From Corynebacterium sp. (GTDB lineage Bacteria > Actinomycetota > Actinomycetes > Mycobacteriales > Mycobacteriaceae), in the NCBI RefSeq assembly GCF_030538285.1, contig NZ_JAUNUG010000032.1:1-35727 (forward strand): a stretch of 35,727 bases of DNA. Direction: 5' to 3'. Positions 1 through 25,212 of this stretch are shown here, one piece after another. The notes beneath the pieces are model-generated. The model saw only the letters and a program-made list of their open reading frames with translations, made no database searches and was not told the DNA's origin. The position numbers and the translations under genes are program-made. Within the stretch, counting starts at the first letter, position 1. Every line of letters begins with the position of its first letter.

Positions 1-303
1 TGCGGGGTCATGAAGCCCTGTTGCGCCATCCAGATCTCATGCGCTACGGGGGTTTTCAGGAACTCGATAAAGGCGGGGCCGACCGGGTTATCGGTCAGCA
101 GCGCGAATGACGTGCCGCCACCCAAAAGCGGCTGACCCAGTCCGGCCTCATCCGAGGCGGGGAAATAGAAGAAATCCGCATCCCGCCCGATCTGGGTGCC
201 CTCGGGGAAGAAGGTCGTGATAAAACTGGCCTGACGGTGCATATAGCAACCCGGCGGGCTGGTGAACAAACCGTTCGGGCTGTCGCGGAAATCGGTCGAG
301 GCC
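1..303 (-). pseudogene. C-terminal fragment of an AglE-like sugar ABC transporter substrate-binding protein
   Basis: Read on the minus strand from about 300 down to the left edge, one frame is fully open and gives a coherent protein. It contains GLFTSPPGCYMHRQASF, then FFPEGTQIG, DADFFYFPASDEAGLG, LLGGGTSFALL and FIEFLKTPVAHEIWMAQQGF. This matches what I know of the C-terminal lobe of alpha-glucoside type (AglE-like) solute-binding proteins, including the conserved Pro-Pro-x-Cys and His-Arg-Gln-(Ala/Gly) segment. The homology stops sharply near STDFRDSPN (about 274-300). Upstream, the frame only mirrors the proline-rich coding sequence of the opposite gene. The fragment therefore has no N-terminal half here, and it runs off the left edge. 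Codon choice (TTT, AAA, GGT present) differs from the neighbours and reminds me of alphaproteobacteria. A rearrangement or assembly chimera is the likely explanation. Confidence 0.75.
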
Positions 304-1566
304 ACCGCGCCGGTGCCCCCCGCCGAGCCGTCCGCCGCTCCGTCCGCGACGCCGGACACCCCGGAGCCACCTCTGGCAACGGAGCCCCCAGAGTCGCCGG
401 AAATCCCGGAGCGCCGGGAGAGCGCACAGGAGCTCATCGAGCGCCTCCGTGAGCAGGACAGTGAGACGAACGAGAAGAGCGCGACGAGCAAGGCCGACGA
501 CGTCGCTGTCCCGCCAGCGGGCCGGGAGAAGAAGGACCCGGTCACCGAGCAGCCGCGGGGGATGTTCACCAGCTCTGCCACCCCGCCGCCTCCGGCTTCC
601 GAGCAGCCGGAACCTGCCGCCTATGATCTGACTCCCCCTCCCGCACTGGACCAGTCCACCCTGGTCAACCGGGTGCGTCGCGCCCCGAAGGGCGGGTGGC
701 GGCGGTTGGTGCACACCATCTCCGGTGGGCACATCAATCCGGGTGAGTCGGAGAAGCAGCTGCTGCAGGACGCCCTCGAGGAGCAGATCTGTGCGCCGCT
801 GCGCGGCGATTACCGCATCGCGGTGATGTCGCTCAAGGGCGGGGTGGGGAAGACGACGACCACGGTGGCGCTGGGCGGCATCTTCGCCACTGTGCGCGGC
901 GACCGGGTCATCGCCATCGACGCGAACCCGGACCTGGGGACCCTGGCGCAGCGGGTGGCTGCTCCGGGACCCGCCACGATCCGGGATCTCCTCGCGGCGG
1001 AGGACACGTCCCGCTACCCGGTGGTGCGTTCATTCACCACGCAGGCGACCTCGCGCCTGGAGGTGATCGGTTCGGAGCGTGACCCCGCGGTATCCGAGGC
1101 CTTCAGCGAGGACGACTACCGGCACGCCATCGACATCCTGCAGCACCATTACAACGTTATCCTCACCGACTGCGGCACCGGCCTCATGCATTCGGCAATG
1201 TCCGGCGTGCTCGATCTGGCGAACACGCTGGTGTTGGTGACGTCCCCGGCGCTGGACGGCGCGCAGTCCGCGGCAGCCACGCTCGACTGGCTCAATCTCC
1301 ACGGTTACGAGCAGTTGGCGGCCAATGCGGTGGTGGTCATATCGGCGGCGAATCCGGGGCAGGCGAGCATCGACATGGAGCAGCTCATCAGCCACTTCCG
1401 CTCCCGGACCCGGGCGGTCCATGTCGTTCCGTTCGACCGCCACCTGTCTGAAGGGGCGACGATCGACATGGATCTTCTTGATCGTCGCACCCACCAGGCC
1501 TACATGGAGCTGGCCGCGATCGTCGCGGAGGATTTCGATTCATGGCACCGTCACGCCGCTCCGTGA
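262..1566 (+). CDS. MinD/ParA-like ATPase of the type VII secretion locus (EspI-like), N-terminus uncertain
   Basis: The protein of up to 434 residues has a Pro/Glu/Ala-rich, probably disordered first 130 residues and a SIMIBI-class ATPase domain after about residue 180. The deviant Walker A motif KGGVGKTTT lies at 192-200. Asp220 in VIAIDANPDLGTL matches the switch I region, and Asp303 in YNVILTDCGTG the switch II/Walker B region. This layout (proline-rich arm plus MinD-like domain in an ESX locus) is that of mycobacterial EspI. Its exact role is unsettled; regulation of secretion by ATP level has been proposed for EspI. The GTG at 262 is only the first possible start in the frame. The first 13 codons are antisense to the sugar-binding protein fragment, so the true N-terminus is probably missing. 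It overlaps the next gene by 25 bases, suggesting a shared operon. Confidence 0.8.
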   Translation: MNKPFGLSRKSVEATAPVPPAEPSAAPSATPDTPEPPLATEPPESPEIPERRESAQELIERLREQDSETNEKSATSKADDVAVPPAGREKKDPVTEQPRGMFTSSATPPPPASEQPEPAAYDLTPPPALDQSTLVNRVRRAPKGGWRRLVHTISGGHINPGESEKQLLQDALEEQICAPLRGDYRIAVMSLKGGVGKTTTTVALGGIFATVRGDRVIAIDANPDLGTLAQRVAAPGPATIRDLLAAEDTSRYPVVRSFTTQATSRLEVIGSERDPAVSEAFSEDDYRHAIDILQHHYNVILTDCGTGLMHSAMSGVLDLANTLVLVTSPALDGAQSAAATLDWLNLHGYEQLAANAVVVISAANPGQASIDMEQLISHFRSRTRAVHVVPFDRHLSEGATIDMDLLDRRTHQAYMELAAIVAEDFDSWHRHAAP

Positions 1567-2201
1567 GTGCCGGCGCCCTCGTAGCACTGTGCTTGTCGAC
1601 GTCCGCCTGTTCCGCCCGTCTCGAGCCGTCACCGCCCGTGCTCCACAAGGACGTCGACCAGATGCAGCAGTGGTCCAGCTCCCGTGCGGAGCCCTATGGC
1701 ATCCCGGAGCGCCAGTTGCGGGCCTACGCCTTTGCTGCTTGGCGCATTCACCAGGATTCGGGTTGTCAGGTGGGATGGCCCACCCTCGCTGCGCTCGGTT
1801 CCGTCCTCAGCGACCACGGTCGCATCGACGCCGGCGAGGTCACCGAAGACGGCTCCACGACCGTTGCTCTGCGGGGACTCAACCTCGTCCACCCGGACCG
1901 CCCCCAGGAGGTGCCGGACACCGATGCGGGCACCGTCGACGGGGATTCCCAGCGTGACATCCCCGTCGGCCCTCTGCAGATCATGCCGAGCCGATGGGAG
2001 CAGTTCGGCATCTCCGCCGAACCGGGGCGTCCGGCTGACCCCGACAATGTCGATGACGCAGCCCTCACCACCGCCCGGATCCTGTGCACCGCCGGCGACC
2101 CGACAACCCCTGAGGGATGGGATTCCGGGCTGAAGGAGATCGACCCGGACCCTGAGTTCATCACGGCGGTCCACGCACGCGCCAAGGAGTACTCCCGATG
2201 A
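1542..2201 (+). CDS. Secreted MltB-type transglycosylase-like protein lacking the catalytic glutamate
   Basis: This is a 219-residue exported protein. Arg5-Arg6 followed by a hydrophobic stretch to Cys23 forms a signal peptide, and STSAC may be a weak lipobox. The fold signature is that of actinobacterial MltB/SLT_2 lytic transglycosylases: W79-P-T-L-A-A-L-G, then SDHGR at 90-94, GPLQIMPSRWEQFG, and NVDDAALTTARILC with the conserved Cys. In active relatives the helix reads (I/V)ESxHG with a catalytic Glu. Here the position is Leu89, encoded CTC. The protein is therefore probably a non-hydrolytic peptidoglycan-binding relative. It could help the type VII apparatus pass the cell wall; that role is inferred from position only. 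The ATG at 1542 is preferred over GTG 1563 because only it gives a positively charged signal-peptide start. The gene overlaps the lipoprotein downstream by 4 bases. Confidence 0.75.
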   Translation: MAPSRRSVSAGALVALCLSTSACSARLEPSPPVLHKDVDQMQQWSSSRAEPYGIPERQLRAYAFAAWRIHQDSGCQVGWPTLAALGSVLSDHGRIDAGEVTEDGSTTVALRGLNLVHPDRPQEVPDTDAGTVDGDSQRDIPVGPLQIMPSRWEQFGISAEPGRPADPDNVDDAALTTARILCTAGDPTTPEGWDSGLKEIDPDPEFITAVHARAKEYSR

Positions 2202-2566
2202 GCCGCCGTCACGTCGTTCTTCTCTTCACTGCACTGTCGCTGCCACTCGCCGGTTGCGGTGCCCCGGGGTGGGCGAAAGAGGAGACACTGGAACACCACA
2301 TCCCTCCCCTGGGGCAGCTTCCCGATCTCCCCGCCTATTACCTCCCGCCCCCGCCGGAGGAAACCACGCAGGCGCCGGCACCTCTACCTCCTCCCCCGGC
2401 GCCGGCACCGGTTCCCGTTCCGGAACCGGCCCCTCAGCCGGCGCCGGCACCACAGCCGGCACCAACGGTGACAGTCACCCGCCAGGAGGCACCTCCGCCT
2501 CCTCCTCCACCCCCTCCACCGGACGACGCGATCCGCATCCATGTCCCCGACTTCCTCCGCCCCTGA
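2198..2566 (+). CDS. Small proline-rich lipoprotein
   Basis: The product has 122 residues. MSRRHVVLLFTALSLPLAGC is a textbook lipoprotein signal with lipobox LAGC (Cys20), so the mature protein should be lipid-anchored on the outer face of the plasma membrane. From about residue 45 it consists almost entirely of Pro, Ala, Glu and Val, with PAP repeats and a run of ten prolines, and it ends in IRIHVPDFLRP. Such a rod-like region could span the cell wall. No enzymatic motif is visible. The start overlaps the stop of the preceding gene (ATGA), implying translational coupling within the MinD-like/transglycosylase-like operon. I do not recognise a named family. The low-complexity sequence makes homology search unreliable. 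Confidence 0.7.
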   Translation: MSRRHVVLLFTALSLPLAGCGAPGWAKEETLEHHIPPLGQLPDLPAYYLPPPPEETTQAPAPLPPPPAPAPVPVPEPAPQPAPAPQPAPTVTVTRQEAPPPPPPPPPPDDAIRIHVPDFLRP

Positions 2567-2589
2567 CCTCCCCTCCTGAATGAGACGAC

Positions 2590-2802
2590 ATGAGCGAGAC
2601 AACCCAGCCCCGCAAAGACCACCGCGCCACCGTGCAGGCCCACGCACTCCGTATGTCCTTGGCTGATTCAGCAATCCGCTTCGGCGCCACCGAACCATCG
2701 CTTCCACCACGACGTCCGGGCATCCTCTTCTTCTCTGCCGTTGTGGCGTCCGTGGCGCTGGTGGTCACCATAGGCGCGGCTGTGGTCATACAAATGCTCT
2801 GA
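2590..2802 (+). CDS. Small single-helix membrane protein of the ESX locus, unknown function
   Basis: This 70-residue protein has a charged N-terminal half and one predicted transmembrane helix at about 45-68 (ILFFSAVVASVALVVTIGAA), ending two residues later. Topology is probably N-inside. It lies 23 bases after the lipoprotein gene in the same direction and is the last plus-strand gene before the convergent AT-richer cassette. The Shine-Dalgarno sequence (GAATGAGACGAC) is weak, which fits translation by coupling. I recognise no family. Association with the secretion apparatus is an inference from position. Confidence 0.6.
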   Translation: MSETTQPRKDHRATVQAHALRMSLADSAIRFGATEPSLPPRRPGILFFSAVVASVALVVTIGAAVVIQML

Positions 2803-2861
2803 GACGAAGGCCCGCAACCCGCACCACCGGCTCACGCACCTCTCTCATAGCCATAACGTCC

Positions 2862-3230
2862 TCAGATCAACCATTCAGTGTCGAAATCGGAGCCGATGAA
2901 CCGGGAATCAAGAAACTCAACATCCTTGAAATGAGGACACTTTGGCTCATATTTGTCGACCAAGTCATCCCACGACGTGATGTCATCAAGCACCTCCCGC
3001 AGTGCCGCCATCACCGTCGTCACATCCTTACGCCGCAGATCCAGATCATCCCACCCCGGCACCATGTCACGCCACCACTCTTCCAACCCCTTCGAGTCCA
3101 AGAAGGTATCCAGAGCATGATCAAATGAGACACCACGACCCCCCCCCGTGTAATCCACCATCAAATCATCACTGTCGATACTGAGTAATGATGATGGGGA
3201 TGATGGCATGTAAAATCCATTATCCTTCAT
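2862..3230 (-). CDS. Hypothetical acidic protein, possible orphan immunity protein
   Basis: The product is a 122-residue, strongly acidic soluble protein without signal peptide or membrane helix. It has many Asp residues and Trp pairs, including EEWWRDMVPGWDDLDL. Size, acidity and position, as the last gene of a minus-strand series after an Rhs toxin, fit an immunity protein, but I recognise no family. Base composition is clearly lower in GC than the flanking secretion genes, as expected for a horizontally moving toxin-immunity tail. A run of nine Gs in the coding strand (3139-3147) encodes Gly-Gly-Gly at residues 29-31 and could cause frameshifting. The stop is convergent with the small membrane protein gene 60 bases away. 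Confidence 0.55.
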   Translation of the reverse strand: MKDNGFYMPSSPSSLLSIDSDDLMVDYTGGGRGVSFDHALDTFLDSKGLEEWWRDMVPGWDDLDLRRKDVTTVMAALREVLDDITSWDDLVDKYEPKCPHFKDVEFLDSRFIGSDFDTEWLI

Positions 3231-3263
3231 CTCGGTGACATAGCGAAGCGGCTTGTAACGCAG

Positions 3264-3479
3264 TTAGATGTTGAGACACTTCCGCGCCGACTCCTTGGCA
3301 ATACGAAACTCATGCCTCACCCCATTTGCTTCGTAGGACCACACCATCGCGCGACCCTCCCGCACGAACAAGCCATCCATGACCTCCAGGACCATCGCCC
3401 GGAAATTCCCGAAATTGTACTCCATGTCACCTCTATAACAGTCGCAGCACTTAAGGATCTCAAGAACTGAGCGACTCAC
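3264..3479 (-). CDS. Short hypothetical protein in the Rhs-downstream cassette
   Basis: This 71-residue frame begins at ATG 3479. It contains LEILKCCDCYRGD, MVLEVMDGLF and MVWSYEANGVRHEFRIAKESA, which looks like a short alpha/beta protein. No signal peptide or membrane segment is present. It sits 45 bases after the second paralogous immunity-type gene and 33 bases before the acidic 122-residue gene, on the same strand and in the same AT-richer block. It may be an orphan immunity gene or a piece of a longer decayed gene. I recognise no family. Confidence 0.45.
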   Translation of the reverse strand: MSRSVLEILKCCDCYRGDMEYNFGNFRAMVLEVMDGLFVREGRAMVWSYEANGVRHEFRIAKESARKCLNI

Positions 3480-3524
3480 TCATAGGCAAGCTACGAAACT
3501 TTCCACTGTCTGGCGTCCTTGAAG

Positions 3525-4034
3525 TCAACTACGTCTTGGATCTATATCCCGCCCATCCACTCTCGGCGAACGAGACACGGCTATTACCAATCCGGAGGGC
3601 AATAATGTCCCTTCAGGGTCAATCGCAGAGCTTTCCACATACACTGTCACGTTCGTAGGACCACTCCAAGGTAATGGTATGAGGAGGCTATCTCCATCTC
3701 GCGCGAACTTGCCGGAGGTATTGGCCAACGGTCCAATTTTAATACCAGTATCTGCAACTTGAAGGACTCCCTCCACGACAACTGGAAGATCTTGCGCATC
3801 CCCCACAAGTGTTAAGGGAAAGTAGTCGAGATCTCTGCCATCGACCATAACCGTACGAACTGAGATTGACGTCTCTGATAATGCATAAAGGAAGTCCCTA
3901 TCCCACTCAGCTCTATTGGGCCCCAACCTCTCTCCATAGATGGTCACTAATCCATCCTCAGGATATGAGTCAAGCGCGATTGGCTCAAAGCTTGCCTTAC
4001 GGTCCAACGTTTTCCATCCTTTCGATGCAGACAA
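3525..4034 (-). CDS. Candidate immunity protein 2, paralogue of the upstream gene
   Basis: The product has up to 169 residues, no signal peptide and a beta-rich look. It shares a pattern with the gene just upstream: FPxxxxG in the first half, IPLPWSGPTNVTVYV (IPVPWSGSVCVRVF in the partner), and LPSGLVIAVSR (LPTGLIVCIER in the partner). This marks a tandem duplication followed by strong divergence. The frame opens at TTG 4034. The TTG at 4007, which follows GAAAGGATGG, would align better with the partner's N-terminus. Overlap with the upstream gene suggests translational coupling. Its place directly behind the Rhs toxin and the partner suggests neutralisation of the DNase domain or of a related allele. 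That is inference; I know no named family. Confidence 0.65.
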   Translation of the reverse strand: MSASKGWKTLDRKASFEPIALDSYPEDGLVTIYGERLGPNRAEWDRDFLYALSETSISVRTVMVDGRDLDYFPLTLVGDAQDLPVVVEGVLQVADTGIKIGPLANTSGKFARDGDSLLIPLPWSGPTNVTVYVESSAIDPEGTLLPSGLVIAVSRSPRVDGRDIDPRRS

Positions 4035-4437
4035 TTAGGCCTGTGGGAAGATTTGGAGGCTCGCTCTGCATATCTACACTCGAAGAGAACACTCGCACAC
4101 AGACGCTACCGCTCCAGGGTACAGGTATCATGCATCCAATAATGCCTCTTTCAAGCTGCTCTCCAGCAGAACGAGCATGTGCTATTTCGACTCCTCTTTC
4201 GTCTATTTCAAGCACGCATTCGAGAATTTTCATTCCTCGAAGGCCGGAACAAGTTCCGACTTGTATTTCCACCGGGAATTGATCTGATTCTTCTGCAACT
4301 ACTACTGTGATGCTTCCCGGGGTGGTCGTGTATCGCAGATTGTCGCCCCACTCCCACGGAGCATCGTCTTGCTTGCCAAAAATTTGGACAATTCCGTAGG
4401 CAGACCAAGCGGATAGGTTAAATACCTTTGACGTCAC
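3997..4437 (-). CDS. Candidate cognate immunity protein for the Rhs-NucA toxin
   Basis: The 146-residue protein starts at a GTG whose last bases overlap the Rhs stop codon (GTGA, 4434-4437), the usual arrangement for a toxin and its cognate immunity gene. It lacks a signal peptide, so it should act in the cytoplasm. It is beta-rich, with FPVEIQVGTCSG, VLEIDERGVEIAHA, MIPVPWSGSVCVRVF and LPTGLIVCIER, and is paralogous to the next gene. GC content falls well below that of the Rhs core, as is typical for the exchangeable tail of polymorphic toxin loci. No family name is recognised, so the immunity function rests on position. Confidence 0.7.
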   Translation of the reverse strand: MTSKVFNLSAWSAYGIVQIFGKQDDAPWEWGDNLRYTTTPGSITVVVAEESDQFPVEIQVGTCSGLRGMKILECVLEIDERGVEIAHARSAGEQLERGIIGCMIPVPWSGSVCVRVFSSSVDMQSEPPNLPTGLIVCIERMENVGP

Positions 4438-7400
4438 TCAACGAGCCTAACATGAAACCAATCTCCGATGCCCACTTTGTTGTTCCTTATAAAGCTGCCC
4501 AACATGCCTCCTTGGCTATTCTGCGCATTTTGCGAGACTCCTAGGACAGTAGAACCAGTTCCACCTTGAGCTGTAGAAGCATAAGGGAACTCATCGGGAC
4601 TAAGCGGTCCGTTCCATCCCCTAATAGCATCGCGCCGATTTGCACTTCCGAGATCCGATCCAATGCGCTGCAGAAGATCAGGCTGCCCATCGTTCATAGC
4701 TCGAATAAAGGTAGTGGCGGTTTCAGGGTGCGCACTTCGTGAGAGCTCGAGAACGTGCGGATTCAATTTGTGCCCAAGTCTTGGATGGCCATCAACAACA
4801 CTATCCGCGTCTATGACATTTTTGAGGGTTTGTTTGTCAAGGGCTCGCTGATGTGCGTTCAATCCGAGTACATCGACCCAGGATCCGGGGTGGATCACAT
4901 ACCCCTGTGCGCTGCTGACGTTCGGACGGACCCCAAGGGGGTCTTGTGCGCCGTAGACGCCGGCTTCTGGGTAATAGGACCGGTAGCGGTTGTACACCCA
5001 CCCCGACTCAGCATCCTCGTACTGCCCGGTAAACAACAGCGGTGATTCGAATAGGCCTGTCCAGGAGCGTTGCCCGTACAGCGACTGGGTGACACGACCC
5101 ACCACCTCACCGGTGCCGGTGTCGAGGATCTCTCGGGGTGCACCCGCCAGGTCCGTGACCAACGCAAAGAACTGCGCGTCCACCTCAGCCTGCGACCAGT
5201 TCGACACCGGCTTGTCAGGCGCACCCGGCACGCCTGGTTGGTGGTGCAGGTGTACCTGCCCCGTCAGCTCCCCGGTACCCGGGTCTCGTACCCACACCAT
5301 CGCCTGGCTCTGGCGCTGTGGGTCCATGCTTACGGTCTCCTGCTGGGCAACCAGCACGTCACGATCGTGAACAAACACCACCCGCGAGAGAACCATCCCT
5401 GAAGCTGCCTCGACCTGCTCCTTCGCCACGCGTCGACCCAGACCGTCATAGACATACCGCCAGCCCACTCCTGGTTCCTCGGAGGAAGTGAATCCGATCG
5501 GTTGGCCGGAGTCCCGGTAGAAGAACTGGTGCACCACCGGCGGCTTCGACAATCGCTTACGCACGGTACGCACCACCCGCCCCGCAGCGTCATACTCATA
5601 GCGGGTCAACCCGACCTTTACCGGCCGGGTCCCCTCCGCCTCGACGTCACCTCGGGCCAGGGTGCCGGCACCAGAGACTTCCTCCTCACCGAAGCGCCTG
5701 AGCCCCGGGGACACATGATCGAGCCGCCCTGCCGGGGTGAACCCGTAGCGTTCACCACCGGCCCCGTCACCGTGGTCGACACCGATGGCCCTGCCCACCG
5801 CATCAACGTCAAAGATGCTCTGACCGGCGAGCTGATCGATGACTGCGACCAGCGCGTTATCACCCCGCCAGCGATACTCTCGCCCGGCCAGGGCACGCAC
5901 CCCGCCAGCAACACGGCTATCGAGCGTCGTCACCTGATCGCTGGTCACGCGATTACGCGTGTCGTACCCAAATTCCCGGACCACGGATCCGGATGTCCAC
6001 CGGGAGCGACGACCCACCGCATCGGCTGCGGTCTCCACCCGGGCGATCTGAGAAGTGTCTTCCCTGTCGCCGACCCGCATAGTGACGGTGCTCAGCTCGC
6101 CTGCCTCATCACGGGCATAGGACTCCTCCCACCAGGTCCCGTCAGGAAGCCGCAGTCGGGTCCCGGAGTACTGCCCGGCGGGAGAATAGTCATAGACCAC
6201 CGAGGTGGTTTCCCCACTGGTCAGCGCGACTGTCTCGCCCTTGGCCCGACCCCACTGGTCGCGGAGGATCTCCACGTTTGTCTCCGGGGTGACGATCGAC
6301 ACCACCCGCCCCGCATTGTCATAGTGCATCCGCGTGAGATTTTCACCTGCCGTACGTGTTGTCACCCGGCCGGCCTTGTCGCGCCGTGTTACCACCGTGC
6401 CCGCCCCATCCGTGATCGACATGGCCCGCTGATCCGGATCCACGTCGATGCGGGTCTCATAGCCGTTGTAGTCCACTTCTCGCACCACCTGGCCATCCAG
6501 GTTGTACTCGTAGGTCCAGACCATCGCATCCGCGTTGATCAACGTCACCGGCTCCAGCTGCGAGTTGTACACCACCCGGGTCACCGCCCCGGTCGCGTCA
6601 ACAACTTCCGCAGGGGTGTCGAACACCGTGAACCGGGTGCGCGTGACCGCACCTTCTTCGTTGATCGCCTCGATCTGGTTGCCTTCTCCGTCATAGCGGG
6701 CCGACAGCGATGTGCCGTCCGGGTGGGTCACCGTTACCGGCCACCCCTCCGGGGAGTAGGCCACCACGGTGGTCTCCCCCACCGGGTTCATCGACTCGAC
6801 CACCAGGCCCCGGACATCACGCTGCATCGACCATCGACGCCCCGCTCCATCCGTACGCGCCACCACCCGACCGGCACCATCGCAGTCCACCAGCATGGTT
6901 ACCCCCGAAGGATCAGTCACCGAGGAGACCACCACACCAGAGACGCGCCACTCATACCCGTAGATCGTCCGCGCCCCGTCCGGAGCGGTGACAGCGGTGA
7001 CCAGACCCGCCTCATCGACCTCATATTCCGTGACCAGACCGTCCCGGCCCACCACCTCGGCTGCTCGCCCCCAGGCACCCGGGGTCACCGCAATAGAGGT
7101 CCCGTCCGCGAGGTCCTCACCGATGACCACCCCACGCTCATCCCGATACACACGGTGCACGCCCCCCGAGGCAGCAGTTTCCTCCACCACCTGGTGGAAC
7201 TGGTTGTACGCACGGTCGACCATCGCCCCTTCCGGAGAAATGATCCGCCACACATCGCCTGCCACCGTCGAGCGATACACCGTGGCCCGCACATCGCCGA
7301 GTACCTCGTCCGCCAACCATCCGGCCGGCACCTGGTGATGCGCACTCGAGCGCTCACCATCACGCCCCCGCCCCGTCAGACCCGCCCCGCTGAGGCCTTG

Positions 7401-9590
7401 GTCGCGCAGCGCCTGCACCAGGGGCAGGGCCTCCAACCGGTCCAACCACTCAGAGACCAGCCCGTCACCGATCTCCAGCGGATCGGCAGGAAACTCCACG
7501 GCCGTCTCGATGAGCACACACACCTGACCGCCCACCGGGGCGTCCGCGCCGTCATCCTCCAGCCACACCAGGGCGTTGGCGAACATCCCACCGGTTCCCA
7601 CCTGGGAGATCACCCGACCCTGCTCATCGAACCGGTAGTAGTAGGACACCCCGTTTCGATCCGTCCACCCGCACGGGCGAGACTGCTCGTCATAGTGGTA
7701 GCGCAGCACCCCGGCCTGGGAGTTGATCACCCGCCGCAGCTGCCCGTACCCGTCATACTCATAGGACACCAGGCGCAACGCCTCCTCACCGGGATGGGTG
7801 GATTCATTCGACACCCACACACTGGCCACCCGGCCCACCCGCTGATCCCACACCATCTCCAGGCAGGTGCCATCCGAGCGGCGCATGGCGACCATGTGGC
7901 CGGACTGCGGCTCATACTCAAACTCAATCGATGCGCCCGTGTGATGCAGCAGCGCAGACACACCGATCTCCACACCCGCGCCCACACGCTGCGCCACCGA
8001 CCCGTCCCGCACACCGGCCCCCGCCGACGAAGCCCCGAACGATGGTGGTGCATCCACCACCGCGCCCTCCGCGCGGTGCTCAGCAACCGAGCCTGCAACC
8101 GCGAACACCCACGTCACTCCCTCAGCGATATCACGGACCCGGTACGCGCCGTCCCCGTAGGACAACCACCACGCGCGTCCATCGGCACGTACCTCCGAGC
8201 CGTCAGCAGGAGCCGGCGGGAACGTCACCAATGCCCCGTCCGCACCCACCATGAGCACCTCGTCAGCACAGACCTCGATACGCACATCCATCCGCGACAC
8301 CCACCGCGGACCCAAAGCACGGCCCAACTGGTGCGCCGAATTCGAGTTACGCTCCACCACCAATGGCAGCACACCATCAATGCTCACGTCGGTCTGGAAA
8401 TCCACCAGGTTTCCCGTCGCCATGTCCACCGGCTCCGCGGCGAAACAAATCTCCCGCCCCCGGGTCACTGCTGAGTACGCCTTTTTCGCAACATTCTCCC
8501 CGGCCTCGCCAAAGGCCTTCTGCAGACCATTGGCGGTGCGCAGCGCCGAGGACTTCGCCAGTGACTTCACCGTGCTCAGGGCCTGCGTCGACATCTTCGA
8601 CCCGGACTGCGCGAGCCGGGCGGCCATCGGGCCGAGTTTTCCCAGCTTCGCTAGTTTCGCGAGACCACCCACCGCACCGCACGTGGCCAGGTCAAAGAGG
8701 AACTCCCCCCACGACACCTCGCCGGCGGCAGCCAGCAGGCCCTTGAGCCCCACGCCGATACCGATGAACACCGCGCCGAGCACCTGCAGACCCGGGATGA
8801 ACAACATGATCGACCCGATGATCTGCAGCGCATCTGAGAGCACCTTCAACAACTCGGCATGCTCACTCACCCAGTCCTTGATGTCCTCCCACAGCGCCGC
8901 CAGACCGGAGGGATTCTCCTGGAATGCCTTGCGTGCCTGCGCCTGGACCACTGACACCTGCGCGGTCACCGCGACCCCCAGATCGGCCTTGATCCCCTGG
9001 GCCGAGACGATGTCCGACTCCCACACCGCCACCGCCGCGGCATGCCGTCCCTGGGCTGCGACGAATGCGGACTGGGCTGCCGCCGCGTCCGCCTGCGCTG
9101 CCGCTGCCGTTGCGGCCGTCGCCGCGTTCACTCCCGGAACCAGCGACGTCGCCACAGCCGAGGCTGTCGCCACCTGCGCTGTCACCGCCGCACGCGCCGC
9201 ATTGAGCTCCGCCGCGTTATACGCCGCCACCGCTGCCTGCACCTGGGCATGATCGACCGCAGCACGTATCACCAGGGAGTTCATCAACCCCAGTGCCTCA
9301 ACCAGCGCGACCTGATACCGGCCGATCGCCTCACCCACCCCCGTGTGCGCCTGTCCTGTGACGTCCAGATGCTGCGGGAACTGCGCATGCACCAACTCCC
9401 GGTACCGGTCTCCCTCCGTACCAATGAACCCACCGTCGGTGATCCCCCGCATCGACGCCGCCGCGCCCAACGCCTGCTCACCGAACGCCACCCAGCGTGC
9501 CGACGCCAGGCCCACCTCACCCGGATTGCCACCCACATGAAACTCCGACGCCTTGTAATGAACAAACGGCAACAACGGCATAACAGGCAT
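4434..9590 (-). CDS. Type VII-associated Rhs/YD-repeat polymorphic toxin with C-terminal NucA/NucB-like DNase domain
   Basis: The start chosen is ATG 9590 (MPVMPLLPFVHYKASEF, GAAAGG 12 bases upstream), giving 1718 residues. Longer reading only adds sequence antisense to the neighbouring WXG gene. Domains in order: an Ala-rich helical ESX-type head (1-230); hydrophobic helices (about 255-310, including IIGSIMLFIPGLQVLGAVF); a DUF6531-like entry segment (about 385-420, VDMATGNLVDF); YD/Rhs repeats (about 450-1520, many YxxxGR and YDxxG); and the core end with YNRYRSYYPEAGVYGAQDPLG and WVDVLGL. The last ~145 residues are a toxin domain. DEFPYAST at about 1665 followed by QNSQGGMLGSFIRNN and IGDWFHVRL matches the NucA/NucB DNase signature (DEYPFAST, NxxQGGxLxxFY, GDxFxV). 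It is probably secreted by the ESX apparatus with the WXG partners encoded just upstream. The immunity genes follow. Confidence 0.88.
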   Translation of the reverse strand: MPVMPLLPFVHYKASEFHVGGNPGEVGLASARWVAFGEQALGAAASMRGITDGGFIGTEGDRYRELVHAQFPQHLDVTGQAHTGVGEAIGRYQVALVEALGLMNSLVIRAAVDHAQVQAAVAAYNAAELNAARAAVTAQVATASAVATSLVPGVNAATAATAAAAQADAAAAQSAFVAAQGRHAAAVAVWESDIVSAQGIKADLGVAVTAQVSVVQAQARKAFQENPSGLAALWEDIKDWVSEHAELLKVLSDALQIIGSIMLFIPGLQVLGAVFIGIGVGLKGLLAAAGEVSWGEFLFDLATCGAVGGLAKLAKLGKLGPMAARLAQSGSKMSTQALSTVKSLAKSSALRTANGLQKAFGEAGENVAKKAYSAVTRGREICFAAEPVDMATGNLVDFQTDVSIDGVLPLVVERNSNSAHQLGRALGPRWVSRMDVRIEVCADEVLMVGADGALVTFPPAPADGSEVRADGRAWWLSYGDGAYRVRDIAEGVTWVFAVAGSVAEHRAEGAVVDAPPSFGASSAGAGVRDGSVAQRVGAGVEIGVSALLHHTGASIEFEYEPQSGHMVAMRRSDGTCLEMVWDQRVGRVASVWVSNESTHPGEEALRLVSYEYDGYGQLRRVINSQAGVLRYHYDEQSRPCGWTDRNGVSYYYRFDEQGRVISQVGTGGMFANALVWLEDDGADAPVGGQVCVLIETAVEFPADPLEIGDGLVSEWLDRLEALPLVQALRDQGLSGAGLTGRGRDGERSSAHHQVPAGWLADEVLGDVRATVYRSTVAGDVWRIISPEGAMVDRAYNQFHQVVEETAASGGVHRVYRDERGVVIGEDLADGTSIAVTPGAWGRAAEVVGRDGLVTEYEVDEAGLVTAVTAPDGARTIYGYEWRVSGVVVSSVTDPSGVTMLVDCDGAGRVVARTDGAGRRWSMQRDVRGLVVESMNPVGETTVVAYSPEGWPVTVTHPDGTSLSARYDGEGNQIEAINEEGAVTRTRFTVFDTPAEVVDATGAVTRVVYNSQLEPVTLINADAMVWTYEYNLDGQVVREVDYNGYETRIDVDPDQRAMSITDGAGTVVTRRDKAGRVTTRTAGENLTRMHYDNAGRVVSIVTPETNVEILRDQWGRAKGETVALTSGETTSVVYDYSPAGQYSGTRLRLPDGTWWEESYARDEAGELSTVTMRVGDREDTSQIARVETAADAVGRRSRWTSGSVVREFGYDTRNRVTSDQVTTLDSRVAGGVRALAGREYRWRGDNALVAVIDQLAGQSIFDVDAVGRAIGVDHGDGAGGERYGFTPAGRLDHVSPGLRRFGEEEVSGAGTLARGDVEAEGTRPVKVGLTRYEYDAAGRVVRTVRKRLSKPPVVHQFFYRDSGQPIGFTSSEEPGVGWRYVYDGLGRRVAKEQVEAASGMVLSRVVFVHDRDVLVAQQETVSMDPQRQSQAMVWVRDPGTGELTGQVHLHHQPGVPGAPDKPVSNWSQAEVDAQFFALVTDLAGAPREILDTGTGEVVGRVTQSLYGQRSWTGLFESPLLFTGQYEDAESGWVYNRYRSYYPEAGVYGAQDPLGVRPNVSSAQGYVIHPGSWVDVLGLNAHQRALDKQTLKNVIDADSVVDGHPRLGHKLNPHVLELSRSAHPETATTFIRAMNDGQPDLLQRIGSDLGSANRRDAIRGWNGPLSPDEFPYASTAQGGTGSTVLGVSQNAQNSQGGMLGSFIRNNKVGIGDWFHVRLVE

Positions 9591-9648
9591 GACGAACAGG
9601 AACCTTTCAGGCGGTGAAGTGGGGAATAGGGGCGTCGAGAAGCGGTCT

Positions 9649-9939
9649 CTAGCCCTGGATGGCCGCGGAGGCGCGGCCGCGGGTCTCAGACACCGAGGCG
9701 GAGTTCTCATCGAGGGCGGCACGCACCTGCCCGAGGATCTCCTTGATATTGGTGGCGGCGGACGACCAGCGTCCGTGGATGCCCTGGTACTCCTCCTGCT
9801 CGGAACCCTCCCAGGCGGAGGCGAGCTTACGGATGTCGGAATCCATCTCCGACAGGGTCGACTCGATCTGGCTCATGACGTTCTGCAGGTCCTGCGAGGA
9901 GGCATCGGCATCGGCATTGTTGTACGCGTACACAGACAT
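9649..9939 (-). CDS. WXG100 family protein (EsxA-like)
   Basis: The 96-residue protein folds as two helices joined by a turn with Trp43-Glu-Gly45, the WXG motif of ESX substrates (ESAT-6/EsxA family). No signal peptide is present, as expected for type VII cargo. GAAGAGGAACACCC precedes the ATG at 9939. It lies 33 bases after a second WXG100 gene and 58 bases before the Rhs start, so the two WXG proteins and the toxin are likely co-transcribed. By family knowledge it forms a heterodimer with its neighbour. It may be a carrier for the Rhs head. The C-terminal end carries no evident YxxxD/E signal, so that signal probably comes from the partner. Confidence 0.88.
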   Translation of the reverse strand: MSVYAYNNADADASSQDLQNVMSQIESTLSEMDSDIRKLASAWEGSEQEEYQGIHGRWSSAATNIKEILGQVRAALDENSASVSETRGRASAAIQG

Positions 9940-9972
9940 GGGTGTTCCTCTTCTCTCGTGATTCGGGTGGGG

Positions 9973-10308
9973 CTAGACGATGGCGCCGTCGTTGAACTGC
10001 ATGCCGGCGAACTTCTGCTGGAGCGCTGAGGTCTGCTCCTCCTCGCCGGCCTGGTAGGCCTTGCCCGCTTCATCGACACGCCCGGTGAGCTGCTCGAGAG
10101 CCTGGTTGACCTTGTCCATGTTCTCCTTCCAGGCCTGGGTCATGTTGTCCCACGCAGCGACCGAGGATCCCTTCCACGAGGCCTTGAGCGGCTCGATCGC
10201 GGACATGAACCTGTCGGACTGCGCCTGCAGGGACTGATGGTTGGCCTGCAGGGAGGAGACGTGGGAGGAGACTGCTGAGTGTTCGACTGAAAGATGTTCG
10301 GAAGCCAT
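9973..10308 (-). CDS. WXG100 family protein (EsxB-like) with C-terminal YxxxE secretion signal
   Basis: The start at ATG 10308 (MASEHLSVEH) is chosen because AAAGGAACAG precedes it at good spacing; an earlier in-frame start would add 23 residues of unlikely sequence. The 111-residue product has Trp45-Lys-Gly47 in the helix turn and a long second helix. Tyr85-Gln-Ala-Gly-Glu89 after that helix matches the YxxxD/E export signal known from CFP-10/EsxB. This makes it the signal-bearing half of a pair with the 96-residue WXG protein downstream, recognised by the last ATPase domain of EccC. The C-terminus extends some 20 residues past the signal. Confidence 0.88.
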   Translation of the reverse strand: MASEHLSVEHSAVSSHVSSLQANHQSLQAQSDRFMSAIEPLKASWKGSSVAAWDNMTQAWKENMDKVNQALEQLTGRVDEAGKAYQAGEEEQTSALQQKFAGMQFNDGAIV

Positions 10309-10454
10309 GGTGATCTGTTCCTTTGCTGTTCGTTGTGGTTGCTTCTCGACGCCCCCGGTTGCTCGGGGTGTCAACATGTCGTGGGAAGGCGCGCGCCCGG
10401 GATGCGGGGGTCACCTGCTGGAGATTCCGACCTCCAGGAGGGTTCCCGGTTGCG

Positions 10455-10757
10455 TCAGGAGGTGGATTCGAGCACCTCCATGATCGCGGTGCGCACCTGC
10501 GTGTTTCCGTCCTGGAACGCTTCCAGGGCCTTCTTCATGTCACCGAGGATGGAGGACATCCCGGCCAGGCCCTGACGGATCTGCAGGTTGAGCTCGTAGT
10601 AGGCGTCGGCCTCGACGGCCACCCATTCCGGCCGGAGATTCTCCATCTGGCCGTCCATCGCCTCGATGATCTCCCCGATGGAGGTGGCGGTGTCCGCAGC
10701 GCTGGCGTTCGAGTCATCCGCAAGGGAATCCGTGAAGGCATACACTCCGGCAGCCAT
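10455..10757 (-). CDS. WXG100-like protein with WxA turn
   Basis: The 100-residue helical protein has Trp45-Val-Ala47 in place of the WXG turn (LRPEWVAVEADAYYEL). Length and helix-turn-helix pattern are those of the WXG100 superfamily, but the conserved glycine is replaced by alanine. There is no signal peptide. Its ATG overlaps the stop of the preceding gene by one base (TGATG), so the two are translationally coupled and probably form a heterodimer. A 146-base gap separates it from the downstream EsxB-like gene. It may be a substrate or chaperone of the same ESX apparatus. Confidence 0.78.
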   Translation of the reverse strand: MAAGVYAFTDSLADDSNASAADTATSIGEIIEAMDGQMENLRPEWVAVEADAYYELNLQIRQGLAGMSSILGDMKKALEAFQDGNTQVRTAIMEVLESTS

Positions 10758-11086
10758 CAGCCCTGCCCTCCCTCACGCAGCGCGGAGGCGAAGTCCTGGA
10801 AGCCGCTCGCCCCCTCCGTGTCGAAGTCCCCGACCATCTGCCCGATCGCCCCGGACACCTCGCCGAGCACACCGACGTTGTCGATGAGCGTCCGCCGGGA
10901 GGCCTCCCACTCATGGAAGAATTCGGCGACCGCGGCCTGCATGCGCGACCCGTGGATGTCATCCACTCCGCTCACCGGCGCGACACCTTGCTCCACGGCG
11001 TCCAGCTCCGTGCTCATGGCGCCGAGCTGCGAGGCCAACGCCTGCAGGTGCTCGACGGGGACCTGTACGTGATCACTGAGACTCAT
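10757..11086 (-). CDS. WXG100-superfamily-like ESX-associated protein
   Basis: The start at ATG 11086 (MSLSDHVQVPVEHL) is preferred because GAAGGTGAG lies just upstream; the GTG at 11098 is inside that ribosome-binding region. The 109-residue product is predicted to be two long amphipathic helices. VPVEHLQALASQLGAM followed by FFHEWEASRRTLIDNVGVLG resembles the EspC/DUF2580-like group of ESX-associated proteins (F-x3-W-x3-R spacing). A canonical WXG is absent. It is coupled to the WxA protein and is a likely partner for it. Assignment to the superfamily is by pattern and length, not by a decisive motif. Confidence 0.7.
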   Translation of the reverse strand: MSLSDHVQVPVEHLQALASQLGAMSTELDAVEQGVAPVSGVDDIHGSRMQAAVAEFFHEWEASRRTLIDNVGVLGEVSGAIGQMVGDFDTEGASGFQDFASALREGGQG

Positions 11087-11124
11087 GTTCTCTCTCACCT
11101 TCTCGCTGTTGATGTGGGGCCGGA

Positions 11125-11874
11125 TCAGGACCGCACTGACACCAGACCGTCTGCATGCGCGGCCACCTCGAGTCCGTCGGAGGTCTCCGCAACGTCCGCC
11201 AGGATCCGCTCCCCCTGCCCCTCCGGGACGATGCGCACACTGTTGATCAGCCGGGCGACGACGTCACGGACGCTGTCCGCCAGCTCGGCGGTGGGTGCGG
11301 AACCGGAGACGATGAGAGTCCACGACGAGTCCGGCAGCGGCAGAAACCCCTGGTGGGTGTACACCGGGCGGCGTTGCGTCAGCGGTCCGGAGAGTGCCTC
11401 CTGGGACACGGCCAGCCAGGAGTGCCCCTCGGGGGTTCGCTGGAGCTGCGGGTCCTGGTGGGCGAACGCGCGCTGCGCCGGCGCCAGGCTGGCCCGTCGG
11501 GGCGCCGCATCCTCCCACCGCAGCAGCAGGGTGGCGGCGGAGACGGTGCCGTCCTCGAGCAGACCGGGCAGCACGAGCGTGAGCAGCACACCACCGTCCT
11601 GAGCCGCCCGAACCGTGTGGGAGAGCTGCTCCCGGATGAGTCGCTTCTCGGCGGCACGGAAGCGGTGTCCGGGCAGGTAGTCCTCGGACAGGCGCTCGGC
11701 CCGCACCTGCCACGTGTCGGGGTGAGTGTCCAGCAGGAGCCACGAGGTGGGCAACTGCACCCGCCACAACAGATCCGGGCGGGGAGCTGCGGGATGGAAC
11801 TCCAACAGCGGGACATCGACCTCGGCAGGCACGCAGGACTCCTTCGGTGTGGGTGGCATGAACCTCCACAGCAT
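11125..11874 (-). CDS. ESX-locus protein of unknown function
   Basis: This soluble protein of about 249 residues has no signal peptide or membrane helix. It contains LLWRVQLPTSWLLLDTHPDTW near the N-terminus, GVLLTLVLPGLLEDG in the middle, and WTLIVSGSAPTAELADSVRDVVARLINSVRI near the C-terminus, suggesting two alpha/beta halves. I do not recognise the family. The ATG at 11874 follows AGGTGAG; GTG 11877 and ATG 11859 are alternatives. It lies between eccC and the WXG genes on the same strand, so a chaperone-like (EspG-type) or regulatory role in the secretion system is conceivable but not shown. Confidence 0.72.
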   Translation of the reverse strand: MLWRFMPPTPKESCVPAEVDVPLLEFHPAAPRPDLLWRVQLPTSWLLLDTHPDTWQVRAERLSEDYLPGHRFRAAEKRLIREQLSHTVRAAQDGGVLLTLVLPGLLEDGTVSAATLLLRWEDAAPRRASLAPAQRAFAHQDPQLQRTPEGHSWLAVSQEALSGPLTQRRPVYTHQGFLPLPDSSWTLIVSGSAPTAELADSVRDVVARLINSVRIVPEGQGERILADVAETSDGLEVAAHADGLVSVRS

Positions 11875-11913
11875 CACTCACCTGAGGGAGTTTTTCAGCA
11901 CGAGAACGCGATT

Positions 11914-11925
11914 TCACAGGTGTGA
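11914..11925. promoter_or_regulatory. Inverted repeat TCACA-GG-TGTGA upstream of the ESX substrate genes
   Basis: Between eccC and the 249-residue ESX gene lie 125 bases without a gene. They hold TCACAGGTGTGA (5-base arms, 2-base centre), about 40 bases upstream of the minus-strand start at 11874. It resembles half of a CRP-family or FadR-like operator. The GlxR consensus TGTGA-N6-TCACA is not met, so no regulator is named. Confidence 0.3.
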
Positions 11926-11982
11926 CCTGCGCAATCTCCACTATCCATATGGTGCAGGCAGGAAGCAGTCATAATTTCCCAA

Positions 11983-11997
11983 GTTTCCTCAGGAAAC
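11983..11997. promoter_or_regulatory. Perfect palindrome GTTTCCT-C-AGGAAAC just after eccC
   Basis: A perfect 7-base-arm palindrome lies 5 bases beyond the eccC stop. Its one-base centre makes it a poor hairpin terminator, and no T-run follows on the minus strand. A protein-binding operator for the substrate operon is more likely. The stretch also contains the A/T-rich AAATTATGACT, which could serve as a -10 region. Confidence 0.3.
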
Positions 11998-12002
11998 ACT
12001 TC

Positions 12003-15000
12003 TCACCCCTCGTGGCCCGGATGGTACGCCAGCTGCACCATGTGCACCTGGCCGGAACGGTCGACCCACTGGGCCCGCCCCGGCGGCAGTTCGCGCAGGT
12101 AGACCTTGGGCCAGATGGCCCCCTCCTGTCGGTCACCCGAGAGGAGCAGGCCCTGGGCCCCCGCCTCGCGCACGCCCTGCATCACCGGGTCATAGCTGGC
12201 GCGGGACATTCCGGTGGAGCGACGGGTGAGGATGACGTGCAGACCCAGATCGGCGGCCTGGGTGAGGAAGGGTACGAAGGGGCGCAGCGGATTGGCACTG
12301 CCCTCGATCATGTCGAGGTCGTCGATGATGAGGTAGATGTCGGGCCCGCTCCACCAGGAGCGCGTGCGCAGCTGCTCGACGGTGACGTCCGCCGGCGGCA
12401 GGCGTCGTTCCAGTTCCTTGACGATGCCCTTGGTGAGGATCTCCGCCGACTGGCGGGTCCCGGCGTAATCCCCGAGGAAGGGCTCGGGGACGAAGCCGAG
12501 GAGCCCGCGGCGCATGTCGAAGACACCGAACATCACCTCACCGGGCTTCCTCTCCCGGATGATCTCGCTGATGAGGGTGCGCAGCGTCGAGGTCTTGCCG
12601 GAGCGGGCGTCACCGACGATGACCAGGTGGCGTTGGGCGCCGTCGAGATCGAAGCGGACGGGGGTGAGGGTCGACTCGGCGATGCCGACAACCCCCGGGG
12701 GCGTGCCCCGCCGGCCCTGCAGCAAGTCGGCGTAGGTGACCATCTCCGGCAGCATGCGCACCGCCGGCGCGGACGCTCCCGGCCAGGCTCCGGAGATGGC
12801 CGCCACCAGCGCGCTGGGGGTGTTCTCCCGAACCACATCCGGCTGGTCAAGGGTGGGCAGCGAGATCTGGCTGTAGAGCGAGTCGGGGGTCAACGCCCGG
12901 CCGGTCGGCTGCCCCTGCAGAGCAGCGGCGGGGGCCCGGCCCACGGAGGAGTCGACCGGGTCGTTGAGCACCAGTTCCACGCGTGTGCCGATGACGGCCT
13001 GCACCTGCAGCTTGAAGTCCGCCCACCGTCCCGACGCGACCACGACGTGGATGCCGTAGCCGAGCCCCCGCTCGGCCAGTTCCATGACGGTGTCGGCGAG
13101 ATCCTCGGCGTCGCGACGCAAGGTGGCCCAGCCATCGACGACGAGGACAACGTCCGCGGAGGGCAGCTCCGGCAATCGGCCCTCGGCGTGCAGGCGGCGC
13201 ATCTGCTCCACCGAGGAGATACCGTGGGCCGCGAAGAGTCGTTCGCGTTCGCTGAGGAAGCCCCGGATCTCCGCGACGAGGCGGCGGAGCTTGTCCTCCT
13301 CGAAGCGCGTGGCCACGTCGCCGACGTGCGGGAGTTCGGCCAGGTAGCTGAGTGCGCTGCCGCCCATGTCGACGACGTAGACGTGGACCTCGTCCGGGGT
13401 GTGCGTCAGCGCCAGCGCGGTGATCAACGACCGCAGGGTGGTGGTCTTTCCGGACTGCGGAGCACCGAGGACGGCGACGTTGCCTCCGGCCCCCGAGAGG
13501 TCGAGGATCATCGGCCCCTGCCACTGGTCGAGAGGGTGATCCTTGACCCCCAGGGGAACGTGCAGCAGTGCTTCTCGACGCCCCACCAGCCCCCGGTCGG
13601 AGGTCAGTTCCAGGCGGCCCAGCGCCGCCTCCAGCCCCGCCGCCTCCGGCAGCGGGGGAAGCCAGATCTGCCGGGTGCGGTCAGCCGCCGGGGTGAGACG
13701 GGAGACGACGAGGTCGAGGGTGATGCGTGCAGAACGGGCCTGCGGTTGCTTCAGTGCACGCTCGGTGCGGTGGGCCTCCTGCCGACGGGACAGCCAGGCC
13801 TCGGTGGTGTTGGCCAGTTCCAGGGGCATCGGAACCGCCGGGAGCTCGCGGTCGGTGCGGCTGGCGGTGGACTGGTAGGGCCCCGAGACGTAGGCGGCCT
13901 TGAATCGCTGGAAGATGTCCGGATCGACCTTGAGGTAGCCGGAGCCGGGGAAGGGGGGCAGCTCGTGAGCGGCGGTGGTGCCGATGGCCTGGCGGGATTC
14001 CTGGGCCGAGAAGGTACGCAGGCCGATGCGGTAGGAGAGGTAGGACTCGAGTCCGCGGAGACGTCCCTCCTCCAGACGCTGGGAGGCCAACAGCAGGTGG
14101 ATACCGATGGAACGGCCGATGCGACCGATCTGCACGAACAGGTCGATGAACTCCGGCTTCGCGGCCAGCAGTTCACCGAACTCGTCGATGACGACGAACA
14201 GGACCGGCAGGGGGTCACTCACCTTTCCCTCCGCGCGCAGCTGCTGATACTGGCCGACGTTGGCGAGGTTGCCCGCCTCCTGCAGAACGCGCTGGCGACG
14301 CTGGATCTCACCGAGGATGGAGTCATGGAGGCGGTCCACCAGCCCGGCACCATCCTCGAGGTTGTCCACGATGGCCGCAGTGTGCGGCAAGGACTCCAGG
14401 CCGGCGAAGGTGGCTCCGCCCTTGAAGTCGACGAGGACGAGGGAGAGCAACTCCGGCGGGTGACACACCACCTGAGAGAGCACGAGGGTACGCAGCACCT
14501 CCGATTTACCCGAACCGGTGGCACCGACGCACAGGCCGTGCGGGCCCATGCCGCCCTGCGCGGACTCCTTGATGTCCAGTGTCACCGGCTGCCCGGCGGC
14601 GTCGATGGCGAAAGGGACGGAGAGGAAATTCTCCCGCGGACTGGGAGCCCACGCTTTCCGGATGTCGTAGGTGGCGAAGTCCCCGATACCGAGCATCGCA
14701 TCGAGCCCGATGGTCTGCTCCAGCGGTGCCTCCGGAGTGGCGTCCTCCACGAGGCGCAGCGGGGAAAGCACCCGGGAGACGGCCTCGGCAAGGGAGACCG
14801 GGACGGCGTCGACACGCCCGGTCGAGCCACCGTAGAGCAGGCGCTCGACATAACCCTCCGCACCCTCCTTCGGTTCCCGGATCTCACCGCGGTCGAGGAG
14901 CTGGACACGGAAGTCACGCGCGGCGTCGATAAGCACGCGCACGTCGACATGAGAGGGCTCCAGATGCTGAACGGACGAGGTCGCCAGCACCGTGATCCGC

Positions 15001-16028: not shown

Positions 16029-16071
16029 GGAGAGCCAGCCTATCCCCCGTTTGCCAGGAGAGCATGAGAAT

Positions 16072-20314: not shown

Positions 20315-20369
20315 GTCTCTACCCCTTACTTTGTTCCCTAACTTGTCACCTACTGTAACGCGCGGGGAG

Positions 20370-20393
20370 GCAAATCTATTTGCACTCCGGAGT
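20370..20393. promoter_or_regulatory. Two adjacent palindromes upstream of clpC
   Basis: GCAAATCTATTTGC (20370-20383) is a near-perfect palindrome with 6-base arms, and ACTCCGGAGT (20384-20393) abuts it. They lie 56-80 bases upstream of the clpC start and about 150 bases upstream of the divergent CAP gene. TACAGT on the minus strand (about 20352-20357) could be a clpC -10 box, placing the palindromes near -35 or above. They could be operators. I could not match them to the ClgR box with confidence. Confidence 0.4.
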
Positions 20394-20542
20394 TTCGAGT
20401 GCCAGAACGAGAGGGTCGTCGCAGGTCAGGGGCATGTACGCCTTCAGCGAACAACCCGCTTTCGGAGGGCCCGCGGACCAGGGGTTGCGCCTCGTTACCG
20501 TTCTGTTACTGTCGACGCATCCCATATCAAGGAGTTCTTATC

Positions 20543-23876: not shown

Positions 23877-24035
23877 TCAGCGCCAGAGTTTCCACCAGGG
23901 GACGTGCTCGACGGCAGGTTCCGGGTCCGGCTCCGGCAGTGGCGCGGGCTCTGGTTCCAGCGCCGCAACACGCGCCGGCACCGTCACATCCGGCGGCTCC
24001 TGCGGGGCCTCCCGCAGGATCTCCCCGGATTCACT
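23877..24035 (-). other. 52-codon in-frame open extension after the Roadblock stop codon
   Basis: After the TGA at 24036-24038 the same frame stays open for 52 codons to a TGA at 23877-23879. Third positions are mostly G or C, as in real genes here. The peptide is Pro/Glu-rich and ends in EHVPWWKLWR, which does not look like random sequence. It includes EPEPAPLPEPDPEPAVEH. No good start codon with a ribosome-binding site lies inside. It could be a C-terminal tail separated by a recent nonsense mutation, a readthrough product, or an old tail now lost. Confidence 0.45.
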
Positions 24036-24410: not shown

Positions 24411-24559
24411 GGTTGTCCTTCGTTGATGAATGTGGTGTCGAACGGGCCCACGGTTGCACAGACAACCTTAAGCACCGACTAAGGCTGAGACTAGACAATT
24501 TGTGAGCGCTCCTCAATACTAGGGCGTGTCGCTATCCACATTCACACGGAGGCCCTGGT

Positions 24560-25210: not shown

Positions 25211-25212
25211 CC

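Follow-up and report, generated by a model that had tools for sequence, protein, structure and literature searches.

A probable Rhs toxin–immunity module with a NucA/NucB-type tip, linked to a second type VII secretion cluster in Corynebacterium

NucA (ComI) domains have been reported to terminate RHS toxins, with ComJ as immunity protein (Zhang et al. 2012, PMC3482391). Rhs toxins have also been linked to type VII secretion systems (T7SSs) of the T7SSa and T7SSb kinds, and a T7SSc Rhs protein with a potential nuclease domain has been reported (PMC11217815). Here we describe a locus in which these elements appear together. The window, that is, the whole stretch analysed, is the 35,727-nt Corynebacterium sp. 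contig NZ_JAUNUG010000032.1 (contig C57 of genome G000), and coordinates are positions in it. It encodes a 1,718-residue Rhs protein that ends in a NucA/NucB-type tip and lies on the same strand as WXG100-type genes and the gene for the ESX ATPase EccC. We consider it likely that these genes form a toxin–immunity module, built on an Rhs shell and tied to a second ESX cluster (T7SSa) that is associated with Rhs. What the sequence shows are the domains, the gene order, the varied tips on one shell and, by prediction, the ComJ-like fold of the neighbouring gene product; export route, cleavage, target, DNase activity and inhibition are inferred.

Several described systems share parts of the arrangement. 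In the Tox-ComI/Imm-ComJ pairs, as here, a NucA (ComI)-type nuclease ends RHS toxins, and ComJ homologues are reported as the immunity protein in several proteobacteria; however, the export routes tabulated there are the type II and type VI secretion systems rather than a T7SS, and the ComJ link at our locus is by predicted fold only (PMC3482391). Listeria LrhA, a 1,656-residue Rhs protein with DUF6531, likewise adjoins a variant T7SS ATPase and has small partners (LxpABC), but it belongs to a Bacillota T7SSb with EssC, whereas at the Corynebacterium locus EccC and EccD are of T7SSa type, the cluster is an additional one lacking any EccB or mycosin match, and the tip belongs to NucA/NucB (PMC10327511). 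Rhs proteins at T7SSc and T7SSd loci are also T7SS-linked but differ in T7SS subtype, and the available text of that report leaves their nuclease family unstated (PMC11217815). In Streptococcus suis, WapA-CT1 is an Rhs/WapA protein whose tip resembles NucB (6ejs) and inhibited growth in the Escherichia coli cytoplasm; unlike the protein described here, it has no small partners, according to its authors (PMC12704120). The C terminus of Aeromonas hydrophila AH54 Rhs2 is predicted to belong to the NucA/B superfamily, yet this protein is a type VI effector with FIX and DUF2345 domains (PMC12396204). Finally, Bacillus NucB (5omt, 6ejs) and ComJ (4mqd) correspond to our pair in nuclease family by sequence and in inhibitor fold by prediction, although NucB is secreted as a small enzyme and has Asn117 and His53, at which positions the Corynebacterium tip, itself carried on an Rhs shell, has Gln and Thr.

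Each kind of component is therefore known, and the combination looks new. The titles and beginnings of abstracts returned by searches of open-licence PMC papers contained no T7SS-linked Rhs protein with a NucA/NucB tip and no Corynebacterium Rhs–ESX cluster. As far as these searches show, the novelty lies in the combination within a Corynebacterium T7SSa cluster, the satellite make-up of that cluster without EccB or mycosin, a ComJ-fold candidate immunity protein invisible to sequence search, and a Gln-variant nuclease site. A preliminary description of the locus had suggested that it would be a distinctive antibacterial weapon. An antibacterial role is favoured by the gene of predicted ComJ fold at the toxin stop codon and by the interchangeable tips of relatives, but because NucA/NucB–Rhs tips and T7SS–Rhs proteins are both in print, the system is less distinctive than was held.

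The Rhs frame lies on the minus strand and is uninterrupted from an ATG at 9590 to a stop at 4434; an alternative upstream GTG start would give 1,762 residues. The interval originally assigned to it, 4434–11086, contains the gene but also takes in four small genes beyond position 9590. The protein matched RHS_repeat (E 2.8e-29), DUF6531 (E 1.1e-16) and Rhs_assc_core (E 2.4e-11), and E values of 6e-33 to 6e-22 were obtained against solved Rhs proteins, with two teneurin-like chains matching more weakly. An Asp-containing motif at the end of the Rhs core is the usual self-cleavage release point of Rhs tips. In the window, the tip starts immediately 3′ of the core end QDPLG...WVDVLGL, and the D..GL element is present in 22 of the 24 core ends compared among the window and 27 related loci; the two exceptions (L066 and a 92-residue frame of L070) stop inside the motif, one of them at a contig end. 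The final 141 residues carry the NucA/NucB domain that the preliminary description had recognized: PF14040 scored 43.3 bits at residues 1661–1714, where the cut-off is 23.8 bits (E 5.4e-11 for the whole protein; 47.8 bits with the tail alone), and in a PDB sequence search solved NucB chains matched across ~95 residues (E 4e-4 to 1e-3). Given these two results, the assignment is, at the level of sequence, well beyond chance, and the domain assignments as a whole are strong.

The tip keeps the catalytic pair, D1666–E1667 corresponding to NucB D93–E94, but some points weigh against the proposed reading. The PF14040 match spans only profile positions 46–99 of 100; Q1690 occupies the position of the NucB metal ligand Asn117; T1627 occupies that of the supporting His53; and in B. 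subtilis NucB, H47A or N111A, affecting the counterparts of T1627 and Q1690, left no significant activity (PMC5758888). The Gln and Thr are thus a real doubt, and the tip could be a decayed or catalytically altered domain that cuts no DNA, in a cassette that is a relic. We regard this as quite unlikely. Among 57 other PF14040 segments, those with loci returned from surveys of 296 and 397 genomes, 43 have Asn at the ligand position, 9 have Gln and 4 have Ser, the remaining one being gapped there, so membership of the family is not decided at this site, while the catalytic columns are nearly invariant (Asp in 55, with Glu in the other 2; Glu in all 57). His occurs in only 27 of the 57 at its own column, which is loosely aligned and has 9 gaps. 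Both the Asn ligand and the supporting His are usual in the family, yet a segment can pass the cut-off without them. In a relative located in a 382-residue frame of the same bacterial family, the corresponding residues are EQNSQGG (51 columns, 47% identity). Two corynebacterial tips that share only 50% identity also both retain DE and Gln, and the candidate immunity genes have been retained. From these alignments, we read the Gln form as a probable natural subclass. An AlphaFold model of the tip, built from two sequences, was discarded as unusable (mean predicted local distance difference test (pLDDT) 37).

A scan of genome contigs with the tip alignment returned one locus, in C. glaucum; a plasmid scan returned one Streptomyces RHS protein (36% identity over 69% of the tip); and the viral contigs scanned contained no relative. 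The window and C. glaucum tips are free of cysteine, whereas all 57 segments contain one or more, and three are present in the Streptomyces Rhs tip; a tip without cysteine would be suited to working in a reducing cytoplasm. A PF14040 segment of the Gln form with a SPDEYP-type start lies within a 3,464-residue frame (L100) from another genome of the order.

A partner gene at 3997–4437, omitted from the preliminary description, encodes the candidate immunity protein Imm1, the start of which overlaps the toxin stop codon (GTGA). The best PDB match to its predicted fold was ComJ (4mqd), the inhibitor of B. subtilis NucA. A nuclease-type tip and a ComJ-fold neighbour therefore support each other. 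In C. glaucum, the gene directly after the NucA/NucB tip also resembles Imm1 (32.5% over 40 residues, E 1e-5); its match to Big_5 is weak and under the cut-off. These observations have to be set against several that pull the other way. The Imm1 model, built from three sequences, is of moderate quality (pLDDT 58.5; the other four models reached 29–38), and AlphaFold may have learnt ComJ itself. Neither Imm1 nor its tandem copy Imm2 matched Pfam at E ≤ 1, the ComJ family PF11033 included, and PDB sequence searches with Imm1 or a five-relative profile gave nothing credible and did not recover ComJ. The C. glaucum protein, moreover, shares only 17% identity with Imm1 over the alignment, a weak similarity. 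By sequence, PF11033 was matched neither in the window's own genome nor in any of the 298 genomes searched in the order. Imm1 is, as modelled, ComJ-like in fold and by sequence not a member of PF11033, and its assignment as a candidate immunity protein is good, though based on a model of moderate quality.

After the C. glaucum Rhs gene (L092:7348–11648), the Imm1 relative is accompanied by a gene just above the Imm52 cut-off and an orphan-tip-like frame without a shell; the array continues with a frame that looks transposase-like by eye and a partial second copy of the immunity gene. At L032:1429–1860, in the same genus, an Imm1 relative (24% identity, E 1.4e-6) was found in a 3.3-kb locus without an Rhs-like frame.

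At E ≤ 0.001, a search of 242 genomes of the genus recovered the Rhs head in 24, counting the one that contains the window (20 at E ≤ 2e-28 and four weaker), and the window was compared with 27 further fetched loci (28 in total). Eighteen tips could be scanned, including that of the window; at the other ten loci, the tail was cut, in another frame or not found. Tips above cut-off were Tox-REase-7 (three), NucA/NucB (two), GIY-YIG (one) and colicin-DNase/WHH (one); three more were nuclease-type matches below cut-off, and eight had no credible match. The G+C fraction falls to 0.47–0.59 over window positions 2850–4949, against ~0.65 beyond, and the drop begins near the tip. We read this low-GC tip and immunity block, together with the varied tips, as cassette exchange, like that of other polymorphic toxins.

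A close comparison was provided by sister contig C33 of the same bin, which is collinear with the window, with DNA identities of 79% (616–2802), 78% (8620–17471), 88% (17611–21048) and 81% (24031–27142), falling to 67% over 7199–8436. No alignment was obtained over 2803–7198, a gap that covers the immunity genes, the tip and also part of the Rhs core, which is only ~48–51% identical at the protein level. The tip on C33 is Tox-REase-7, and the genes downstream of it differ from those in the window. One feature sits poorly with a simple exchange of tips: the alignment resumes inside the Rhs core, at 7199, so the right edge of the gap does not mark the tip. We also considered C33, the Rhs head of which is 80% identical to that of the window, as a paralogous second Rhs locus. 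This was weakened by the presence of clpC next to the cluster on both contigs (98% amino acid identity), by the flanking DNA identity of 78–88% and by a bin contamination of 6.73%. It is more likely that C33 comes from a co-binned relative, probably as one of two co-binned Corynebacterium species, than from a duplication.

The diversity of tips also bears on whether the protein serves DNA uptake or biofilm turnover, as Bacillus NucA and NucB do, rather than antagonism. The closest characterized nucleases and ComJ do stem from competence and biofilm biology (PMC5758888, PMC3482391). Nevertheless, with an Rhs shell, tandem candidate immunity genes, a low-GC block and relatives that bear unrelated nuclease tips on the same shell, such a role appears very improbable, and a toxin–immunity module remains our preferred reading.

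Reading downstream along the minus strand, EccC is followed by a 250-residue protein, an EspC-like protein, three WXG100-type proteins, Rhs, a pair of homologous small genes and another two small genes. This upholds the single-strand order from EccC to Rhs that had been described, except that the 250-residue gene separates EccC from the small genes. It also modifies the count of four WXG100-type genes: two exceed the Pfam cut-off, the third falls just under it, and the fourth is EspC-like and below the cut-off of its own family. Partner 3 is related to partner 1, which several of its relatives match by BLAST (for example, at E 9.7e-15); a comparison of the two profiles gave a probability of 100, but the sets share members. 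By best BLAST match, relatives were present for partner 1 in 23 of the 28 loci, for partner 2 in 21, for partner 3 in 16, for the EspC-like gene in 22, for the 250-residue gene in 21 and for EccC in 15, several loci being cut by contig ends or fetch limits. YxxxD/E is a T7SS export signal; at the C terminus of partner 2, it occurs in 17 of 19 sequences, including that of the window. Encoded between EccC and its small partners, the 250-residue protein may, from this position, be a chaperone or adaptor.

Gene order points to type VII export of the Rhs protein, but a real nuclease might instead leave the cell by another route, such as Sec or lysis, with the ESX genes as bystanders. S. suis WapA has a NucB-like tip and, according to its authors, lacks the T7SS helical targeting domain (PMC12704120); therefore, such a tip does not imply a T7SS. 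The ESX-type helical head claimed in the preliminary description could not be demonstrated by sequence. The head had no family match at E ≤ 1, and its best hhalign probability against the local WXG proteins was 17.8%, with an F-x-G-x-E-G-x-x-Y stretch placed on the WXG turn (the strict form of this stretch occurs in 18 of 26 Rhs heads); neither a WXG nor another ESX domain is demonstrable there. In addition, EccC is absent from the stretch fetched at 13 of the 28 Rhs loci, several of which are cut, and G477, G423 and G321 have Rhs copies at a great distance from any EccC. Adjacency of Rhs and EccC is therefore not universal, and both this and the head result tell against coupling to the ESX cluster. 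Conversely, the Rhs N terminus is not signal-peptide-like by eye, partner 1 relatives mostly sit just upstream of Rhs, and an EccC additional to the core one was found in all 10 of the Rhs-bearing genomes chosen for examination and in none of 4 genomes without the Rhs head. On balance, we think another exit route unlikely and favour export through the ESX cluster.

The window contains no match to EccB or mycosin. EccB occupies a single place per genome in 19 of the 20 genomes searched and was not found in one that is 88% complete; in the window's genome, it lies on contig C84 with the core EccC, the core EccD and the best mycosin match. This mycosin match reached 221.6 bits against a cut-off of 278.75, with a weaker one on C34; across the mycosin search, 2 of 14 genomes were above the cut-off, and G441 and G423 have a second, weaker match elsewhere. 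The EccE search gave no match anywhere, controls included, and was uninformative. Because the cluster has no EccB or mycosin match, and EccB and the best mycosin match are at the core ESX locus, it appears to be a satellite that would have to share them with the core ESX machine. Among 9 other loci that were examined, 8 have the MinD-like, 219-residue and 70-residue genes nearby (the exception is G456), and 5 have the 122-residue plus-strand gene.

Table 1. Coordinates of the Rhs module and the associated ESX genes.
Feature	Coordinates	Strand	Basis
Rhs polymorphic toxin, 1,718 aa	4434..9590	minus	Open reading frame and translation; RHS_repeat, DUF6531, Rhs_assc_core; solved Rhs proteins
NucA/NucB-type nuclease tip, 141 aa (residues 1578–1718)	4437..4859	minus	PF14040; NucB chains; column alignment
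Rhs core end, QDPLG...WVDVLGL	4860..4946	minus	Motif comparison among related loci
Imm1, candidate immunity protein, 146 aa	3997..4437	minus	Predicted ComJ fold; overlap with toxin stop
Imm2, diverged tandem copy of Imm1 (28% identity)	3525..4034	minus	TTG start uncertain
Two small genes, 122 and 71 aa, no family match	2862..3479	minus	Same low-GC block
WXG100 partner 1, 96 aa	9649..9939	minus	PF06013, 45.7 bits; kept in relatives
WXG100 partner 2, C-terminal YxxxE, start uncertain	9973..10377	minus	PF06013, 52.6 bits
WXG100-type partner 3, 100 aa	10455..10757	minus	25.9 bits, below cut-off (27.3)
EspC-like small protein, 113 aa	10757..11098	minus	PF10824, 21.8 bits, below cut-off (23.5); place conserved
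250-aa gene, no credible family	11125..11877	minus	Relatives in related loci
EccC ATPase, ~1,341 aa from ATG 16028 (open frame from 16295)	12003..16028	minus	TIGR03924, 806 bits; TIGR03925, 760 bits
EccD membrane protein, divergent from EccC, start uncertain (open frame from 15628)	16072..17475	plus	TIGR03920, 98.1 bits (cut-off 94.95); PF08817/PF19053
MinD/ParA-like ATPase (434 aa) and 219-, 122- and 70-aa genes	262..2802	plus	PF01656 for the ATPase; by eye, 219- and 122-aa products lipoprotein-like, 70-aa product a membrane protein

The remaining genes of the low-GC block, encoding 122 and 71 residues on the minus strand, are possibly further immunity genes or remnants. Near the cluster, a DHA2-type MFS exporter (25685–27112, minus strand) scored above the TIGR00711 cut-off and far under those of named resistance families.

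From this arrangement, we infer the following working. The Rhs shell would fold around the 141-residue tip, and the WXG100 partners (including partner 2 with its YxxxE) and the EspC-like protein would attach the toxin to the EccC encoded in the cluster. Export would then proceed through EccC and EccD, probably aided by the EccB and mycosin of the core ESX locus. Cut free after the D..GL motif, the tip would degrade the DNA of a competing cell, while Imm1, made from the overlapping gene, would protect the producer and its kin by inhibiting the nuclease, in the way that ComJ inhibits B. subtilis NucA. More tentatively, and at a level we place somewhat short of probable, a satellite ESX cluster of EccC, EccD, a MinD-like ATPase and WXG partners, itself without EccB or mycosin, might plug into the core ESX channel and so make the actinobacterial T7SSa an antibacterial Rhs-delivery machine, one warhead of which would be a Gln-variant NucA nuclease neutralized by a sequence-invisible ComJ-fold immunity protein.

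If correct, these findings would extend antibacterial Rhs delivery to a mycobacterial-type ESX cluster in Corynebacterium, and a role for T7SSa in bacterial competition would become testable in a corynebacterium such as C. glaucum. They would also suggest a way for a spare EccC to feed cargo of its own into a machine whose EccB and mycosin are shared, and would join the Bacillus competence pair NucA–ComJ to a toxin–immunity pair.

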